Below, one piece after another: positions 1,721 through 11,254 of a stretch of DNA of 24,630 nucleotides. The position numbers and the translations under genes were made by a program. The stretch is from positions 1-24,630 of IMG/VR virus record IMGVR_UViG_3300028840_002089, one strand, 5' to 3'. The notes under the pieces are model-generated. The model saw only the letters and a list, made by a program, of their open reading frames with translations. It was not told the origin of the DNA and did no database searches. How positions within the stretch are numbered: the stretch's first letter is position 1; each line of letters begins with the position of its first letter. Source of the stretch: a virus.

Positions 1721-2158
1721 ATGGATACACAGGGCTGGACAAAGGCGAAAATCCTAAAATATCACAAGCTATTGAAATACCTATCAAATCCAGACAATGC
1801 TGAGGTAGGTGTAGAGTTTTTAGCGTGTGAGGTTTTGGGGTACAAGCAACGGAATACGATTTACTCTGCGTTTAAGTGCGAAGAACTGACCGAAATATAC
1901 GATGAAGGATTGGCATTATGTCGAAAACAATGTGCCCGGTTATTGCGAAGTGTAGACCTGGGGATGTTGAAGCAAGGCGCGGCGGGAAACCCTGCGGCAG
2001 CTAAACTCGTTTATCAACGCATCGAAGGATGGTCGGAGAAAATAAGATTCGGGACCGATGATATCGACAGCGCAATCGAGCGGGAATTGGAGAGAATGGC
2101 CGGAGCCAGCAAAGATACAGATGTTGGAACGCCTCCAGTCGATGCCGAGCCCGAATAA
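1721..2158 (+). CDS. Putative terminase small subunit
   Basis: Small terminases bind phage DNA at the packaging start and load the large subunit. The 145-residue protein fits by position (directly before and overlapping the large subunit), by size and by pattern. It is all-helical, with a putative helix-turn-helix near residues 36-60 and a central segment (LLRSVDLGMLKQGAAGN, about 75-91) like the oligomerisation helices of small terminases, followed by a charged, Asp/Glu-rich tail. The start is ATG 1721; an in-frame TGA at 1706 rules out a longer form, and no clear ribosome site is seen. The assignment rests mostly on context. Confidence 0.65.
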   Translation: MDTQGWTKAKILKYHKLLKYLSNPDNAEVGVEFLACEVLGYKQRNTIYSAFKCEELTEIYDEGLALCRKQCARLLRSVDLGMLKQGAAGNPAAAKLVYQRIEGWSEKIRFGTDDIDSAIERELERMAGASKDTDVGTPPVDAEPE

Positions 2159-3725
2159 GCTTAGTGATTTTACCCGCTACCAGGATGACCCCGTCGGGTT
2201 CGCAAAAGACGTTCTGGACATCACTGTCACTCCCGACATTGCCAAGATGCTGGAGAGCATTCGGGATAATCGGATCACAGTAGCCAGGAGCGCCACGGGG
2301 ACCGGCAAAAGCCACGGTGCGAGTGTGGCGTCTATTTGGTTTTACAAGTGTTTTCCGGATAGTTTTGTCAGGACAATCGCAAATCCCACGGAAAATCAAA
2401 AAATTCTATGGGGTGAATTATCGGCAATGACCGAAAGACATCCTGATTTATTCAGCGATGACACGATTAAGTATTTCAGCATTAAGCGGGGGCCTAAAGA
2501 TTTTATTGAGCCTCTAACTGTCCCCACGACAGGTGCCGAGGCAGTTCGGGAAGGTAAATTTTCCGGCAAACATCATGCCCATATGCTCTATTTGTTCGAT
2601 GAGGGTGATACCGTTCCGGATTTTGCATATCGGGGAGTTGAGGGGTGTATGTCCGGGGGGCTCATTGTCCGGCTGTTGATTTTATTCAATCCTCGCTATA
2701 GCGCGGGATACCCGTATAGGCTGGAGCATAAAGACAAATCAGCAAATATTATTCATTTGAGCGCATTCAATCATCCCAACGTTATAACAGGCCAAGAGAT
2801 TATACCGGGCGCAGTCAATCGGTCAACGACCGTCCAGCGTATCCGTCAATGGTGCCGACCGCTGAACAAAGAGGAAAAGGCAGGCAAAGACACATTCGAA
2901 CTCCCTAAGTTCTTGGAAGGCGTCACGGATGATGGAGGAGATCCGCTGAAGGCAGGTTTTTATAAGATCATGGAACCAGCTTTTTCCTACATGGTTTTGG
3001 GTGAGTACCCTGCTCAGTCTCAGTTTCAACTAATCAGCCGGGAATGGACAGCGATGGCACGTTCACGGTGGGACGCCCACGTTGCAAAATTCGGAGAAAT
3101 ACCCCCCAGGGGCACTCAATGCCTCGGGGGACTGGACGCTGCGGAAATGGGGGATGATGTCAATTGCGACTGTTTCAGGTGGGGCGGGTACGTTGAGAGA
3201 TTAATCACCTGGGGCGGGGTTGACATGATGGAAACCGGCGACAGGGCGGCCAGGAAATACCGCAAACGCCGGATGATCCAGCAAAACGTTGATGCGATCG
3301 GGGTGGGCGCCGGGGTTGCTCCCCATATGAGACGTTTGGGGTGCCCTAATGCCATATCGGTAAAAACATCGGAAAGACCGACAAGAAAGTCCGAGTTGGG
3401 CGAATTCGGTACATTGCGCGACCAACTCGCATGGGAGGTCCGGGAGTGGTTGCGTGTGGACCCCGGGGCCATGTTGCCTCCGGACGATGAACTTTTAGAG
3501 GAGCTGCACACGCCGACCTATGACGTCAGCACGGGTAAAGTCAAGGTGATGCCGAAACGCGCCCCGATTGACGCACGGACGGGCACCAGGCGGGCCACCA
3601 TGCACGACCTCTTAAAGCGGTCTCCAAATAAGTTCGATGCCCTGTGCCTCACATTCGCCCCCCGGAAAGACCTCGGGGTGAGGGGCAACCAAGAAATCAA
3701 GCCCAGCGGGTTTGTATGGAGTTGA
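2121..3725 (+). CDS. Terminase large subunit (ATPase/nuclease)
   Basis: This is the DNA-packaging motor. The frame is open from 2058 (555 residues). I prefer ATG 2121 (534 residues) because homologous sequence begins near the following LSDFTRYQDDP; 2058 and 2142 are other options, and none has a good ribosome site. The ATPase domain has a Walker A ATGTGKSH (about residues 58-65 from this start) and a Walker B-like LYLFDEGD (about 156-163). The C-terminal RNase H-fold nuclease shows GLDAAEMGDD as its first acidic motif, then DAIGVGAG, and ends with a SPNKFDALCL segment holding a late acidic residue. It overlaps the small subunit by 38 bases and is followed after one base by the portal gene. 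No broken motif is seen. Confidence 0.93.
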   Translation: MLERLQSMPSPNKLSDFTRYQDDPVGFAKDVLDITVTPDIAKMLESIRDNRITVARSATGTGKSHGASVASIWFYKCFPDSFVRTIANPTENQKILWGELSAMTERHPDLFSDDTIKYFSIKRGPKDFIEPLTVPTTGAEAVREGKFSGKHHAHMLYLFDEGDTVPDFAYRGVEGCMSGGLIVRLLILFNPRYSAGYPYRLEHKDKSANIIHLSAFNHPNVITGQEIIPGAVNRSTTVQRIRQWCRPLNKEEKAGKDTFELPKFLEGVTDDGGDPLKAGFYKIMEPAFSYMVLGEYPAQSQFQLISREWTAMARSRWDAHVAKFGEIPPRGTQCLGGLDAAEMGDDVNCDCFRWGGYVERLITWGGVDMMETGDRAARKYRKRRMIQQNVDAIGVGAGVAPHMRRLGCPNAISVKTSERPTRKSELGEFGTLRDQLAWEVREWLRVDPGAMLPPDDELLEELHTPTYDVSTGKVKVMPKRAPIDARTGTRRATMHDLLKRSPNKFDALCLTFAPRKDLGVRGNQEIKPSGFVWS

Positions 3726-3726
3726 T

Positions 3727-5880
3727 ATGATCTCAGGAGCCAATCCAGCATTACAGCACACACCGGGGTCCGGACGGGGACTACTCTCCTTCATCCCGGC
3801 TGCCGAAACTGACAGGATCAAGGAAGAGGAAGCCAAGAGGGCGGCAGAGGAAACTCAGAACGATGAATTCGTTTCCAATCTCGGGGCGGATTTGGCCCTC
3901 CGGTGGCAGGCGGCGAAGAAGGCCAAGGAGCCCATTGATCGAATCCTCCTGCAATGTCTCAGGCAGAGAAAAGGCGAATATGACCCGCAAAAGCTGGCAA
4001 TGATCAAAACCCAGGGCCTTGCCGAGAATTTTATCAAAATCACAGACATTAAATGCCGGGCCGCCGAAAGTTGGGTCCGTGATATTTTACGACCTCCGGG
4101 CGAAAAACCATGGTCGACCGATGCCACCCCTATTCCGGATCTCCCCCCCGAGATAGAGCAGGAAATCACCATGAGGGCCTACCAGGAGTACCGTAACGCC
4201 CTGATGCTCTACCCGCCACAGGAGGTCGACGCGCTCGACTGGGAAGATTTGATTGACGAAATCAAACACGCCACAGTCCAGAAAATCAAAGACGAAGCCA
4301 AGAGCGCAGCCGAAAACCTGGAGAGGGAAATTGACGATGATCTCATTGAGGGCAAATGGTACGATGCTGTCGATGATATCATCTATGATGTCGTCACGTT
4401 CCCCGCGGCATTCGTTGAAGGACCAATCAAACGCAAAGAAAAGGTTTTGGATTGGGTCAGTCTCCCGGGCGGCGGCTCCATCCCTGCCCCGACCGAAAAA
4501 GTGGTCAAGATGTACGACCGCATTTCCCCTTTCGATATGTATCCATCACCGGGCGCAAAATCACTACAAGACGGATATTATTTTATTAAAGATCGGTTTC
4601 GTAGGTCAGACCTGAACGCCATGGTCGGGGTTGATGGGTATGATGAGGAGTCCGTGCGGTACGTGCTGAAAACCTACGGGCAATCCGGATTCCGCATGGA
4701 CCATGCCGGGGACCATGAGAGGGCGGACGTCGAGGGCAGACCGCACGAAAAAGACGACCCGGAAGGGACCATTGATTGCCTCAAGTATTGCGGTCCGGTT
4801 CAGGGCTCCAAGCTGATCGAGTGGGGGATGAGCAAGGCAGAAATACCGGACCCGGATTTAGACTATGAGATCAAGGCGTATATGGTTGCCAGTACGGTCA
4901 TATCGGCGGTCCTCAATCCTCACCCGCTGGGGAAACGAAATATATTCTCCGCTTCTTTCGTGAAAAAGAACGATTCAGTTTGGGGCGAGGGTGTGCCTCA
5001 GATTATGAGCGATATCCAGGATATTTGTAACGGTTGTGTCCGCGCCATGGTGAACAACATGGGGATGGCGAGTGGTCCGCAGGTGTGGTATTTGGCCGAT
5101 CTTGTTGACCCCACCATGCCAATGACCACCATGCACCCGTGGAAGCAATGGCCGTTTAAGTCCGATGAAATGATCGGGAAGAGTTCCCCTCCCATGGGGT
5201 TCTTCCAACCGGACCCCATTATCGATGTTCTGATAAAACTATATGACTATTTCTTCAAGCAAGCCTCGGAGATTACCGGGATTCCCGCCTATATCTACGG
5301 GAGCGAAAATGTCAAAGGAGCAGGTAAGACGGCCTCCGGACTTTCCATGTTGATGAACGCGGCCTCTAAGGGGCTCAAGATGGTTGTCGGTCACATTGAC
5401 AATGGGATTGTAAAGCCGTCTATCGAAGCCCACTGGCTGACCATCATGCTGGACGATCCGGAAAAAGCCCAGGGGGATATCAAGATTGTTGCCAGGGCCA
5501 GTGAGTACCTCATCATGATGGAGCAGTTGCAGATTCGGAGGATGGAATACCTCGATGCCACGAACAACCCCGTTGATATGCAGATATTTGGCCTCGACGG
5601 AAGAGCGGAAATTCACAGGGAAACACTTCATTCTCTAAAAATGAATACGGACAAGATCCTCCCCGACCGTGAATCCATTATGGCTAGACAGGAAGAAATG
5701 AAGCTGCGGAAAATGCTGGAAGCCATTTCAGCGTCAACCGGGATTCCCGTTGAACAACTTGTTCAAATGGCCTCCGGGGGAACGGCGGGGCCCGGCCAGG
5801 GGCCTGTTGGACAGGAAAAGAGGGCGATTGGCCCCGATGGACAGCCGGTGGCGGGGCAGGATTTCAGGGGGATGCAGTAA
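3727..5880 (+). CDS. Portal protein (P22-size)
   Basis: The portal forms the dodecameric ring at one capsid vertex through which DNA enters and to which the tail attaches. The 717-residue length is close to P22 gp1 (725). Recognisable portal features are DMYPSPGAK, the segment around GSENVKGAGKTASGLSM in the second half, and a helical C-terminal region followed by a Gly/Pro-rich tail. ATG 3727 is chosen because GGAG sits five bases upstream; a TTG at 3712 would overlap the terminase. The position straight after the large terminase is standard. Its last bases (TGCAGTAATG at 5873) are repeated at the end of the next gene. Confidence 0.9.
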   Translation: MISGANPALQHTPGSGRGLLSFIPAAETDRIKEEEAKRAAEETQNDEFVSNLGADLALRWQAAKKAKEPIDRILLQCLRQRKGEYDPQKLAMIKTQGLAENFIKITDIKCRAAESWVRDILRPPGEKPWSTDATPIPDLPPEIEQEITMRAYQEYRNALMLYPPQEVDALDWEDLIDEIKHATVQKIKDEAKSAAENLEREIDDDLIEGKWYDAVDDIIYDVVTFPAAFVEGPIKRKEKVLDWVSLPGGGSIPAPTEKVVKMYDRISPFDMYPSPGAKSLQDGYYFIKDRFRRSDLNAMVGVDGYDEESVRYVLKTYGQSGFRMDHAGDHERADVEGRPHEKDDPEGTIDCLKYCGPVQGSKLIEWGMSKAEIPDPDLDYEIKAYMVASTVISAVLNPHPLGKRNIFSASFVKKNDSVWGEGVPQIMSDIQDICNGCVRAMVNNMGMASGPQVWYLADLVDPTMPMTTMHPWKQWPFKSDEMIGKSSPPMGFFQPDPIIDVLIKLYDYFFKQASEITGIPAYIYGSENVKGAGKTASGLSMLMNAASKGLKMVVGHIDNGIVKPSIEAHWLTIMLDDPEKAQGDIKIVARASEYLIMMEQLQIRRMEYLDATNNPVDMQIFGLDGRAEIHRETLHSLKMNTDKILPDRESIMARQEEMKLRKMLEAISASTGIPVEQLVQMASGGTAGPGQGPVGQEKRAIGPDGQPVAGQDFRGMQ

Positions 5881-8215: not shown

Positions 8216-8248
8216 CGGCAGTAGGGCGACGGCCAAGCTCTACTGCCG
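8216..8248 (+). promoter_or_regulatory. Stable hairpin in the scaffold-gene leader
   Basis: CGGCAGTAG (8216-8224) pairs perfectly with CTACTGCCG (8240-8248) around a 15-base loop. It lies 12 bases before the AAAAGGAGA ribosome site of the scaffold gene. With no T-run it is not a terminator. It could protect a processed mRNA 5' end or set translation level. The rest of 8158-8272 shows no gene or tRNA. Confidence 0.5.
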
Positions 8249-8272
8249 ACTCCCCGCAAAAGGAGAATCAAT

Positions 8273-9298
8273 ATGGCAATCCCAGATCAAGCATTGGCTG
8301 CCGAAAAAAAAGCCGACGAAATGTTGGAAAAAATGATCAATGACGAGACCCCCGGCGAAGAAACACCGGATCTCGACATTGAAGGAGAAGAAAAGGAAGT
8401 CGTTCCGGAAGGTGAGGAACCCGGTCAGGAGCCCGGCGAGGAGCCTGTAGAGGGCCAGGAAGAAGATGCCCCGAGAGAGGATACGGTTGATTACTGGAAG
8501 CAGCGTTTCAAGGTGGTGGAAGGTAAATTGGGGGAAGTCACTACCCTTGTCGATCGAGTCAATAGCCTGACGATCCAAAATGCGGAGTTGTCCCGGCTGT
8601 TGACTGATGCCCGAAAGCCCAAAGAAGATGAGGGGGATGAAGAACCCCCGGAAGATGGGCAGACCTTCCTTAACCTCATGACCGAGGAGGAACGGGAGGT
8701 AGTCGATAGGGATCTCGGTGAGGATTCTCTCGACATTATCGGTAAAGTCGTTCAACGGATAGCCGATGATGCCGTGAAGCCGGTCAAGGATAATGTTGAG
8801 ACGATCCACAGGGAAACCGCGAAAACCAAGGAAGAAGCATATTACGATACCCTCGACGCCGCTTTCCCTGATGGTGAGTGGGAGCGGTGGAACAAGGACC
8901 CGAATTTCAATAACTACATGGCGACCCAAAAACTCCCCTATACCGATACTCCCTACAAGATTGTCCTCCAGGAAGCGGATCGGGCCCTTGATGCCGGTAA
9001 GGTCATCGAAATCATCAACGATTACAAAAAAGCGAATGATCTTCCGGTGTCTCGGAAGAAACCCGTACCGGAGAAGAAACCCGGGCCTCCGAAAAAGCAA
9101 GAACACGTTGACCCGAAACGCGGTGCAGGGCCGGAAATTCCGTCAACCACCACAGGAGACGGAAAGATCTGGACCGTGAAGGAAATTCGGGAATTCTACA
9201 AGGATTCCGCGATCGGGAAAAAGTACACCGAAGAAGAACGGCTAAAAATAGATAAGGATATTTCCAACGCCCACTTGGAAGGGCGGATCAAACAATAA
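8273..9298 (+). CDS. Putative capsid scaffolding protein
   Basis: Scaffold proteins direct capsid protein into a correctly sized procapsid and then leave. The 341-residue protein is placed directly before the capsid gene. It has a Glu/Pro-rich acidic N-terminal third (about residues 20-70), a coiled-coil-like stretch (about 75-115), further acidic linkers, and a Lys/Pro-rich segment (about 262-290) followed by a short helical C-terminal domain ending in ISNAHLEGRIKQ, likely the capsid-binding end. This build is typical of podovirus scaffolds. AGGAG precedes the ATG. The call rests on position and composition, not on a sequence motif. Confidence 0.8.
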   Translation: MAIPDQALAAEKKADEMLEKMINDETPGEETPDLDIEGEEKEVVPEGEEPGQEPGEEPVEGQEEDAPREDTVDYWKQRFKVVEGKLGEVTTLVDRVNSLTIQNAELSRLLTDARKPKEDEGDEEPPEDGQTFLNLMTEEEREVVDRDLGEDSLDIIGKVVQRIADDAVKPVKDNVETIHRETAKTKEEAYYDTLDAAFPDGEWERWNKDPNFNNYMATQKLPYTDTPYKIVLQEADRALDAGKVIEIINDYKKANDLPVSRKKPVPEKKPGPPKKQEHVDPKRGAGPEIPSTTTGDGKIWTVKEIREFYKDSAIGKKYTEEERLKIDKDISNAHLEGRIKQ

Positions 9299-9304
9299 AA
9301 TTTC

Positions 9305-9358
9305 CGGGTCTGACGAGCGAGGGTTTTTACCCGAGTGGCGGGGGCCGGTTCTCCCGCC
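9305..9358 (+). promoter_or_regulatory. Structured leader of the capsid gene
   Basis: Two hairpins lie between the scaffold stop and the capsid start. CGGGT (9305-9309) pairs with ACCCG (9329-9333), and TGGCGGG (9336-9342) pairs with CCCGCCA (9353-9359). The first holds a run of five T in its loop but none after the stem, so neither is a standard terminator. A strong AAAGGAGA ribosome site follows at about 9398-9405. They may stabilise the capsid mRNA. Confidence 0.45.
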
Positions 9359-9411
9359 AGCCTGGACAGTAGCCAACCGGGGTGAATCTACCAAAAAAAA
9401 GGAGATGAATT

Positions 9412-9549
9412 ATGGCAGATTATCCAGTTTCGGTAGGCGTTACAACCATGTCTTCAACGTACATTCCGGAGATATGGAGTGGTAAAACCCTTGTTAAATT
9501 TTATAAATCGACGGTGTTCGGGGAAATCGCGAACACCGACTATGAGGGT
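9412..9549 (+). CDS. Major capsid protein, exon 1
   Basis: The first 46 residues of the capsid protein. They carry the conserved opening of P22-coat-like capsid proteins (STYIPEIWSGKTLV, then FGEIANTDYEG). The frame meets a TAA at 9550-9552, which is the first codon of the intron, so unspliced RNA yields only this short peptide. The exon ends GAGGGT, which pairs with GCCCTC in the intron (9566-9571) to form the P1 helix with a U-G pair at the splice site. The ribosome site AAGGAGA is eight bases upstream of the ATG. Joined to exon 2 the protein has 303 residues with a phase-0 junction. Confidence 0.9.
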
Positions 9550-9758
9550 TAATTGAGATAATTTGGCCCTCTTTAAACCCTGTGAATTGCTGGAACACCC
9601 TAAAGCCTGTACGCCACAACGTGGCCGGTAACGGCGAGCGTGATGGCCTGAAAAGCGACAGGATGAAACAATGGGCAATCAGCAGCCAAGCCCCCCGGAA
9701 ACGGGGTGAAGGTTCAACGACTAAGGGAAGTAGCCTAAACTTCGGCAAGGCAAAACCC

Positions 9759-10349
9759 TCACGAGCGCAGGGCTTTTTTTCGAGGTTTCTTGTCAGGGCC
9801 TCTACCTTTTTTGCCGATATGGTGTTTTGCGGTATGTGCGGAAAGCGGCATTATTTCAAGGTTCTCAATGCGATTGTCGGCTTTGTCTCCATTTATGTGA
9901 TGGATCAATTCCCTTGGGTCAAGGATTCTGCCAAGGCGTTCTTCCATGACAAGCCGATGCTTTCTAACGTACCCTTTGCTGTCAGCGTGTGGGTGTTCAG
10001 GACATTGGACCATGATGTATCCGTTGTGCGTAATGATGTACCCTTTATGGTATCTGTCGGGAATGGCGATTCCGTGTTCTCTTCCTGCCCTGGAAATAGA
10101 GGAAGAGGAAAACTTAAGGATTTTGCCAATTTCGGGGGCAGTAAAGCCTTTAGCAGCAAGCCCCTTCACTTTGTCAGTGGGTACAGTTCGGCGCTTTTTT
10201 TCAATGCCAAACCTATTCATGTAATTCAGGACACATTTTTTACTGACACCATATTTTTGGGCAATTTTTACGGTAGAGTGAAGATCGCTGTAGTCTTCCT
10301 CAAGCATTTGCTTGGTAAACACTACATTAAGTATTCTTCTTCCTTGCAT
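9759..10349 (-). CDS. HNH homing endonuclease encoded antisense in the intron
   Basis: The enzyme would cut intronless copies of the capsid gene, so that repair copies the intron in. The 196-residue product has two helix-turn-helix-like segments (about residues 24-50 and 58-94), likely for target recognition, then an HNH_3-type domain: GYVRKHRLVMEERLGR (126-141), LIHHINGDKADNR (148-160, with H150, H151, N153, D158, N159), ENL and a distal H172. The Lys/Arg-rich tail may bind DNA. A strong GGAGG lies seven bases before the ATG on the minus strand, and a promoter-like pair lies further upstream at 10375-10404. Expression opposite to the intron RNA is unusual: the gene must be read from its own promoter. 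Confidence 0.92.
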   Translation of the reverse strand: MQGRRILNVVFTKQMLEEDYSDLHSTVKIAQKYGVSKKCVLNYMNRFGIEKKRRTVPTDKVKGLAAKGFTAPEIGKILKFSSSSISRAGREHGIAIPDRYHKGYIITHNGYIMVQCPEHPHADSKGYVRKHRLVMEERLGRILDPRELIHHINGDKADNRIENLEIMPLSAHTAKHHIGKKGRGPDKKPRKKALRS

Positions 10350-10374
10350 AACTTAACCTCCTGTGTTTTGGGTA

Positions 10375-10404
10375 ACTATATCACCATAAGCACCCATTTC
10401 GCAA
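10375..10404 (-). promoter_or_regulatory. Sigma70-like promoter for the antisense endonuclease gene
   Basis: Read on the minus strand, TTGCGA (10404-10399) and TATAGT (10380-10375) are 18 bases apart, matching 4 of 6 and 5 of 6 consensus positions. The -10 lies 25 bases upstream of the endonuclease start codon, leaving room for the GGAGG site. It falls between the endonuclease start and the 3' half of P7, so it does not disturb the catalytic core. Confidence 0.5.
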
Positions 10405-10480
10405 GTAAAAAGATGATATAGTCTGAGCTTGTCGGAGACGGCAAGAAGGCAGGATAAAGAGCCTGTCGATAACACAACTG

Positions 10481-11254
10481 GAAATCAAGGCATACGGCGA
10501 TAAGGTCCACATCCGGATTATCCCCGACATTACCATCAATGACTATACCATCGGGCAAAAGCTCAACCGGGAACGCCCGGCCACGGCAGACGTTGAACTC
10601 GATATCGATCATGGCAAGTATTACTCGTTCAAGATCAACACGGTCGAGAAGGCCCAGGCGGACATCAACTATATTGAAAAGTGGTCCGACGATGCCGGGC
10701 AGCAGATGTCGATTAAAATTGATAGTGATATTCTGGGCGATGTTTACTCCGATGCCCATGCGAGCAATGCCGGGGCCACGGCGGGGGTTAATTCCTCCGC
10801 GTTCGATCTCGGTACGGCGGCAGCCCCGGAGAGCATCGATAAAACCAATATTCTCGATTATATCGTCGATCAGGGGACCGTCCTGGATGAACAGAACGTT
10901 CCGCAAACTTCCCGGTGGTTGCTCTTTCCCCCGCTTTTCTGCGGTATGATCAAGAAATCCGACCTGAAAGACGCTTCATTGGCCGGGGACGGAGTATCGA
11001 TCATGAGGAATGGGAGGCTTGGGACCATCGACCGATACACCATTTATTCAACCAACAACCTGAACTCTACTGCGGGCGTTTTCGATTGCATGTCGGGACA
11101 CCCGACCGCCATCACTTTCGCCTCTCAGTTGGTCGAAAACCGGATCATCCCGGATCCTGACGACTTCGGGGATATCATGGAGGGTCTACAGGTCTTCGGG
11201 TACAAGGTTATCAAGTCCGAATCCCTGGTTCATTTCGTGGCCCAGAAAGCGTAA
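10481..11254 (+). CDS. Major capsid protein, exon 2
   Basis: This exon gives 257 residues and completes the 303-residue capsid protein. The frame is open through the splice site, and the joined sequence reads TDYEG followed by EIKAYGDKVHIR, the continuous conserved segment expected in P22-coat-like (HK97-fold) capsid proteins. Further family-like parts are PDITINDYTIGQ, the strand-rich YYSFKINTVEKAQ and the C-terminal DRYTIYSTNNL and KVIKSESLVHF. It has no start or ribosome site of its own at the 5' edge; an internal ATG at 10706 is not needed. A GC hairpin follows the stop at 11260-11280. The insertion point lies in a highly conserved codon stretch, as is usual for homing introns. Confidence 0.92.
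   Translation, partial: EIKAYGDKVHIRIIPDITINDYTIGQKLNRERPATADVELDIDHGKYYSFKINTVEKAQADINYIEKWSDDAGQQMSIKIDSDILGDVYSDAHASNAGATAGVNSSAFDLGTAAAPESIDKTNILDYIVDQGTVLDEQNVPQTSRWLLFPPLFCGMIKKSDLKDASLAGDGVSIMRNGRLGTIDRYTIYSTNNLNSTAGVFDCMSGHPTAITFASQLVENRIIPDPDDFGDIMEGLQVFGYKVIKSESLVHFVAQKA

Follow-up and report, generated by a model that had tools for sequence, protein, structure and literature searches.

The major capsid gene of the virus studied here is interrupted by a group I intron whose endonuclease gene lies on the opposite strand, an arrangement that raises the questions of how such a gene is expressed, how it came to run in that direction, and whether the direction matters. The reading developed below is of a mobile intron with a self-contained endonuclease cassette that is predicted to repress itself and whose expression would be independent of strand; judged as a whole from comparative sequence analysis, it is quite probable. 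Comparison with relatives supports the intron structure, the exon junction, changes of orientation, conservation of a promoter, and a mimic of the homing site within that promoter.

The capsid gene and its intron

The whole stretch of DNA analysed, a virus record of 24,630 bases referred to as the window, has the gene order of a head and packaging region, with matches to terminase-like (2058-3725) and portal-like (3712-5880) families and, on the plus strand, the major capsid gene (9412-11254). Located 5' of the capsid gene, positions 8273-9298 match phrog_13678, a family of unknown function, and possibly encode a scaffold; a long minus-strand open reading frame (8240-9106) lies opposite this gene. 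The capsid gene is composed of exon 1 (9412-9549, plus strand, codons 1-46), which ends in ...NTDYEG with U as its last base, and exon 2 (10481-11254, plus strand), the first 22 nucleotides of which, GAAATCAAGGCATACGGCGATA (10481-10502), presumably form the site recognised by the endonuclease. Joined in phase 0, as the first-pass annotation of this DNA had proposed for the TDYEG-EIKAYGD junction, the exons encode a 303-residue protein reading ...NTDYEG/EIKAYGDKV... that matches the major head protein (phrog_267, E 1.7e-43; Pfam Phage_capsid_4), and without splicing the capsid reading frame meets a stop at the first codon of the intron. A capsid homologue lacking the joined TDYEG-EIK sequence had been named as grounds for discarding the intron; instead, about 70 homologous viral loci without the insert read continuously through N-T-D-Y-E-G-E-I, and the capsid proteins of Rhizobium phages are likewise uninterrupted across the junction.

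The insert (9550-10480, plus strand, 931 nucleotides, terminal G) contains the sole Rfam RNA match in the window, a full-length hit to the group I model RF00028 at 9540-10445 on the plus strand that scores 67.8 bits, above the gathering score of 50, in agreement with the original assignment, and it has a conserved paired core. P1 (9544-9571) is formed by exon bases GAGGGU (9544-9549) and the guide sequence GCCCUC (9566-9571), and closes with the U-G expected at a 5' splice site. P3 (9578-9772), which pairs CCCUGUG (9578-9584) with CGCAGGG (9766-9772), encloses P4 (9588-9593/9679-9684), P5 (9598-9600/9673-9675), and P6 (9685-9713). P7 (9719-10423) pairs GACUA (9719-9723) with UAGUC (10419-10423) and is followed by P7.1 (9725-9727/9756-9758) and P7.2 (9733-9735/9749-9751), two elements that indicate an IA-type intron. 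P8 (9773-10412) joins CUUUUU (9773-9778) to AAAAAG (10407-10412) and holds the endonuclease cassette in its loop, L8; P9 (10428-10445) and P9.1 (10448-10467) lie downstream.

For a test of this fold, the window core, with L8 replaced by a short linker, was aligned to 18 introns of this site that carry no gene, and a structure comprising P1, P3, P4, P5, P5a, P5b, P6, P7, P7.1, P7.2, P8, P9, and P9.1 was written by hand. The 69 pairs of P1, P3-P9.1, P7.1, and P7.2 are maintained in 89.7% of cells of this alignment, with two-sided changes at 40 pairs, many of them in P3, P6, P7.1, P8, and P9. None of 500 shuffles reaches the real value on any measure, and slid controls also score far below it. 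In the same set of sequences, P5a and P5b lack conservation in their drawn form. Of the complete P1, P4, P7, P9, and P10 pairings listed by the first-pass annotation, the first four are borne out, whereas P10, a 4-bp AAAU/AUUU match in the window, was overstated. The insert thus has the group I core with its P7 pseudoknot, the splice-site U-G, the terminal G, and joined exons that stay open, features by which it is classed as a group I intron and which suggest that it would splice itself out of the capsid mRNA.

The endonuclease gene and its orientation among relatives

Within L8, the minus strand encodes a 196-residue HNH homing endonuclease (9759-10349), identified by a Pfam HNH_3 match (PF13392, 7.5e-11), by PHROG, and by comparison of a structural model with I-HmuI. 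Its Shine-Dalgarno sequence, AGGAGGTT (10355-10362, minus strand), places AGGAGG 7 nucleotides ahead of the ATG, so that an antisense HNH gene with its own GGAGG, as noticed at first reading, is indeed present. The protein has two N-terminal helix-turn-helix units and a C-terminal HNH domain; its catalytic residues, H131, H150-H151, N153, and N163, are invariant in 12 sequences, and differences between HNH genes, including those between a sense and an antisense copy, fall mostly at third codon positions. The top structural neighbour of the modelled catalytic domain is I-HmuI, with a Z score of 7.1, middling by the scale of the tool, and 3.1 Å over 72 residues. A single-protein sequence search of solved structures returned no match for the window HNH protein, and Pfam gave no GIY-YIG match in it. 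The gene and the ribozyme overlap: the last HNH codons (ALRS-stop) are complementary to the P3 3' strand and adjoining core, with the stop codon falling opposite the conserved TCACGA element, whereas in sense relatives the HNH stop often lies within the P7 3' strand, where AAGATATAGTC reads K-I-stop. Opposite the HNH gene, a plus-strand open reading frame of 279 codons (9582-10421) was considered as a second gene and rejected, having no Pfam or PHROG match; long open plus-strand frames occur in several other introns of this site as well, and the one in the window is probably a shadow frame.

Relatives were collected by searching DNA for a pattern that covers the 5' junction together with the guide sequence; this yielded 46 distinct introns located after TDYEG in homologous capsid genes on viral contigs. 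A scan with the HNH alignment, which is independent of the junction, returned nearly only these loci plus two others, L371 and L374, which carry CAGGGT in place of GAGGGT; the HNH family is thus nearly confined to the capsid site among the viral contigs scanned. Of about 48 introns at the exact site, all relatives being metagenomic contigs, 18 are empty, 25 distinct ones carry the same HNH family, and one, L090, carries an unrelated antisense gene. With a few cut-off contigs left out of the orientation classes, 18 HNH copies are sense (for example, L001, L309, L316, L325, and L374) and seven are antisense (the window, L332, L339, L313, L335, L326, and L371). Assembly artefacts are unlikely to account for the antisense copies because these recur in separate contigs (L313/L279, L326/L299, and L339/L322).

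The antisense copies do not form one lineage on any of three trees. A single antisense clade is rejected on the HNH tree (p-AU 0.0021), where at least five orientation changes are needed, on the ribozyme-core tree built with the gene excluded (p-AU 0.0086), where well-supported branches force at least four changes of the antisense label, and on the tree of capsid exon 2 (p-AU 0.0019). The window and L332, both antisense, are grouped on the HNH tree with the sense copies L316 and L309 (support 96/82), and L332 and L309 are neighbours on the core tree too. By these trees, HNH orientation is labile and has changed repeatedly at this site. A route that would serve is inversion in place between the arms of P8: the arms are complementary in most introns, although the window pairing taken alone is short (6 bp, z 0.9), and inverting the DNA between complementary arms would keep P8 intact.

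Repeated invasion of empty introns by cassettes entering in either direction would also change orientation, and as a substitute for in-place inversion it is a distinct possibility, if a doubtful one. Such swapping would account for the empty introns scattered among filled ones on the core tree, for the mutual discordance of the HNH, core, and capsid trees, and for the unrelated antisense gene that L090 carries in L5. It sits less easily with the HNH copies of this site, which all belong to one family found almost exclusively here, share their L8 position and promoter, and include sense and antisense copies that are close on both the HNH and core trees, as in L332 and L309. In-place inversion is the route retained below.

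Other insertions were observed among these genes. The antisense gene of L090 (2761-3408, minus strand) encodes 215 residues with an FCS zinc-finger match at the N terminus only, is by eye possibly a Vsr/EDxHD-type nuclease, and has its own contig as the sole match in the viral collection. A different intron in L072 (3290-3988), with an Rfam match of only 24 bits, interrupts the capsid gene after TD, 9 nucleotides further upstream, and its sense gene has a GGIIDGEG motif that is LAGLIDADG-like by eye, with no Pfam match. Second interruptions of the capsid gene are found near codon 95 in L177 (1662-2630), with a sense LAGLIDADG_2 gene, and near codon 119 in L320/L291. Frames run open from around P4-P5 into the endonuclease gene of L8 in L097, L123, L135, L140, L176, and similar introns, so that translation of the core as an N-terminal extension may occur in some phage introns. 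Endonuclease genes are antisense in 8 of 26 cases at the capsid site and about 1 of 33 elsewhere (Fisher p 0.007), a rough comparison, given that the second count was made by eye from a redundant set of introns. Antisense endonucleases are not exclusive to capsid genes, as an antisense LAGLIDADG gene accompanies a group I intron in the primase/helicase-like gene of L178 (5411-6193, minus strand).

The promoter-like element and its resemblance to the presumed homing site

Upstream of the window HNH gene, a promoter-like element (10375-10404, minus strand) is composed of TTGCGA (10404-10399), an 18-nucleotide spacer, and a TG-extended TATAGT (10380-10375); its -35 box adjoins the P8 arm. A plain promoter scan of the window is unconvincing by itself (four found, 1.8 expected), and the element is called a promoter because it is conserved among relatives. 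Most HNH copies, in either orientation, have a TTG-containing -35 box, a spacing of 16-18 nucleotides, and an often TG-extended -10 box ahead of the HNH start. The upstream regions of 17 sense and six antisense copies, scored as separate groups, each exceed all 400 dinucleotide-shuffled sets, and a (G)GTGATA extended -10 box is present in 11 of the 17 sense regions (1.0 expected) and 4 of the 6 antisense ones (0.3 expected). The promoter-like boxes noted in the first reading thus recur on both strands, and, by consensus and shuffles, the HNH gene appears to carry a promoter of its own within the intron, and its expression is probably independent of the capsid transcript.

The 22 nucleotides running from the -35 box through the first -10 bases resemble, in fixed register, the first 22 nucleotides of exon 2. 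In the window, this putative operator, GAAATGGGTGCTTATGGTGATA (10379-10400, minus strand), is identical to GAAATCAAGGCATACGGCGATA at 15 of 22 positions, and in L325 and L332 the matches are 17 and 16 of 22. An exon-2-like stretch is found in approximately two-thirds of the HNH promoters; the remaining third (L301, L298, L280, L288, L314, L335, L339, and L313) lacks a clear mimic, and that of L001 is weak. The likeness was noticed in the data before its register was fixed, and the cassettes are related, so that combined p-values overstate independence. A gapped local alignment for any similarity between promoter and junction, which was weakly significant (KS p 0.028), was replaced by an unanchored, ungapped scan that compared the sequences upstream of the HNH genes with capsid 22-mers at about 500 offsets. 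The three highest-scoring offsets, 1, 0, and 2 relative to the point where exon 2 begins, have means of 12.4-12.7 compared with 10.60 overall (sd 0.39). Two loci outside the original set, which were read before scoring and had no part in the definition, score 13/22 (L371, p 0.002) and 16/22 (L374, p 0.0007). Promoters also match the exon of their own phage better than those of other phages (14.0 versus 13.1, permutation p 0.007); in L374, for example, the exon has GAAGT, with a Val codon, and the promoter has CAAGT.

These observations point to a homing-site-like operator that overlaps the HNH promoter and is absent from about a third of relatives. The HNH target would probably include the conserved E-I-K-x-x-G-D codons with which exon 2 opens, and, by analogy, binding of the enzyme to the putative operator would repress its own gene. 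The likeness might instead be a relic of target sequence carried in at entry, or ancestral chance, with no repressor role, an account that fits the common ancestry of the HNH copies and the promoters in which the mimic is missing. It is rather unlikely, as copies whose proteins are only 45-60% identical retain the mimic, precisely at the promoter and in both orientations, and the mimic tracks the exon of each phage. Self-repression through the mimic is accordingly kept as the preferred, predicted role.

What the strand itself contributes may be slight. The first-pass annotation had suggested that antisense orientation separates the timing of the nuclease from capsid transcription, an explanation that lacks support in that form, as close sense copies at the same site share the promoter type; separate timing, if any, would come from the promoter rather than the strand. 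It had further suggested that antisense HNH transcription could affect capsid splicing or yield by collision or antisense RNA. The transcript would span P8 and P3 and probably extend further into the core, and a search of 9300-9759 for a minus-strand terminator found none, but the promoter common to sense copies at this site and the frequency of orientation change on all three trees, which suggests near neutrality, render such regulation improbable. A reading of the antisense HNH gene as a decaying passenger, with the overlapping 279-codon plus-strand frame or nothing expressed, is very improbable given the intact catalytic residues, the third-position bias in the HNH frame, and the lack of a family match for the plus-strand frame.

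Known systems and the proposed mechanism

An antisense endonuclease gene in a phage capsid intron has precedent in mycobacteriophage LittleE (JF937101), whose intron, with gp14, is proven to splice by RT-PCR and protein sequencing (PMC3706429). In the excerpted account of that system, the intron likewise lies in the major capsid gene and the endonuclease on the bottom strand, although at another position in the capsid gene, and no sense counterpart or promoter analysis is described there (PMC3706429). By Pfam match, the LittleE endonuclease belongs to LAGLIDADG_3 and that of the window to HNH_3. Sense and antisense endonuclease genes at one site are known from the myxomycete nuclear rDNA L2066 group I introns, where the antisense gene is expressed; these differ in residing in a eukaryotic rRNA gene, in being group IE, in encoding His-Cys enzymes, and in numbering just two copies (PMC9548176). 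A spliced capsid intron with a bottom-strand endonuclease and the pairing of both orientations at one site are thus already known.

The promoter arrangement is reminiscent of I-TevI of the T4 td intron, which binds a sequence in its own promoter identical to the homing site at 15 of 20 positions and represses itself (PMC2988022). The likeness here is 15 of 22; I-TevI, however, is a GIY-YIG nuclease encoded in sense orientation in a thymidylate synthase gene, and repression, demonstrated there, is a prediction in the present case. I-HmuI of SPO1-type phages (PDB 1U3E) is also encoded in a phage group I intron and shares the HNH catalytic domain over the 72 aligned residues, but it is only 19% identical in sequence, lies in a DNA polymerase gene, and has other DNA-binding parts in place of the two N-terminal helix-turn-helix units of the window protein. 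The open-access literature searched yielded no description of a phage intron in which gene orientation changed repeatedly, nor of an HNH gene whose intron promoter mimics the homing site.

In the mechanism proposed, a mobile group I intron would excise itself from the capsid mRNA, and the cassette in its P8 loop, comprising promoter, operator, ribosome-binding site, and HNH gene, would be self-contained. The enzyme would probably recognise the intronless capsid junction, including at least the E-I-K-x-x-G-D codons, and its cut would lead to homing; in most relatives, the mimic of this target within the promoter would switch the gene off as the enzyme accumulates. The cassette could fit either way round with the ribozyme undisturbed, and its orientation has changed repeatedly, both directions being tolerated because expression is predicted to be strand-independent and the P8 arms are complementary. 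Read from sequence comparison, the gene is probably able to invert harmlessly and to shut itself off. More specifically, the P8 hairpin may be a natural flip site at which promoter, operator, and gene invert as a unit around an intact ribozyme, with an operator that co-evolves with the target and limits the enzyme in either direction; this is a tentative proposal, a little short of an even chance.

If true, the cassette would be an HNH counterpart of I-TevI autorepression, of independent origin and functional on either strand. A target-mimicking promoter in a nuclease family unrelated to that of I-TevI would suggest that this form of self-repression evolved at least twice, and it would offer a way of predicting what an intron endonuclease cuts from the enzyme's own promoter. 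The sense and antisense copies at one site constitute a natural experiment on the effect of strand on splicing and host fitness.
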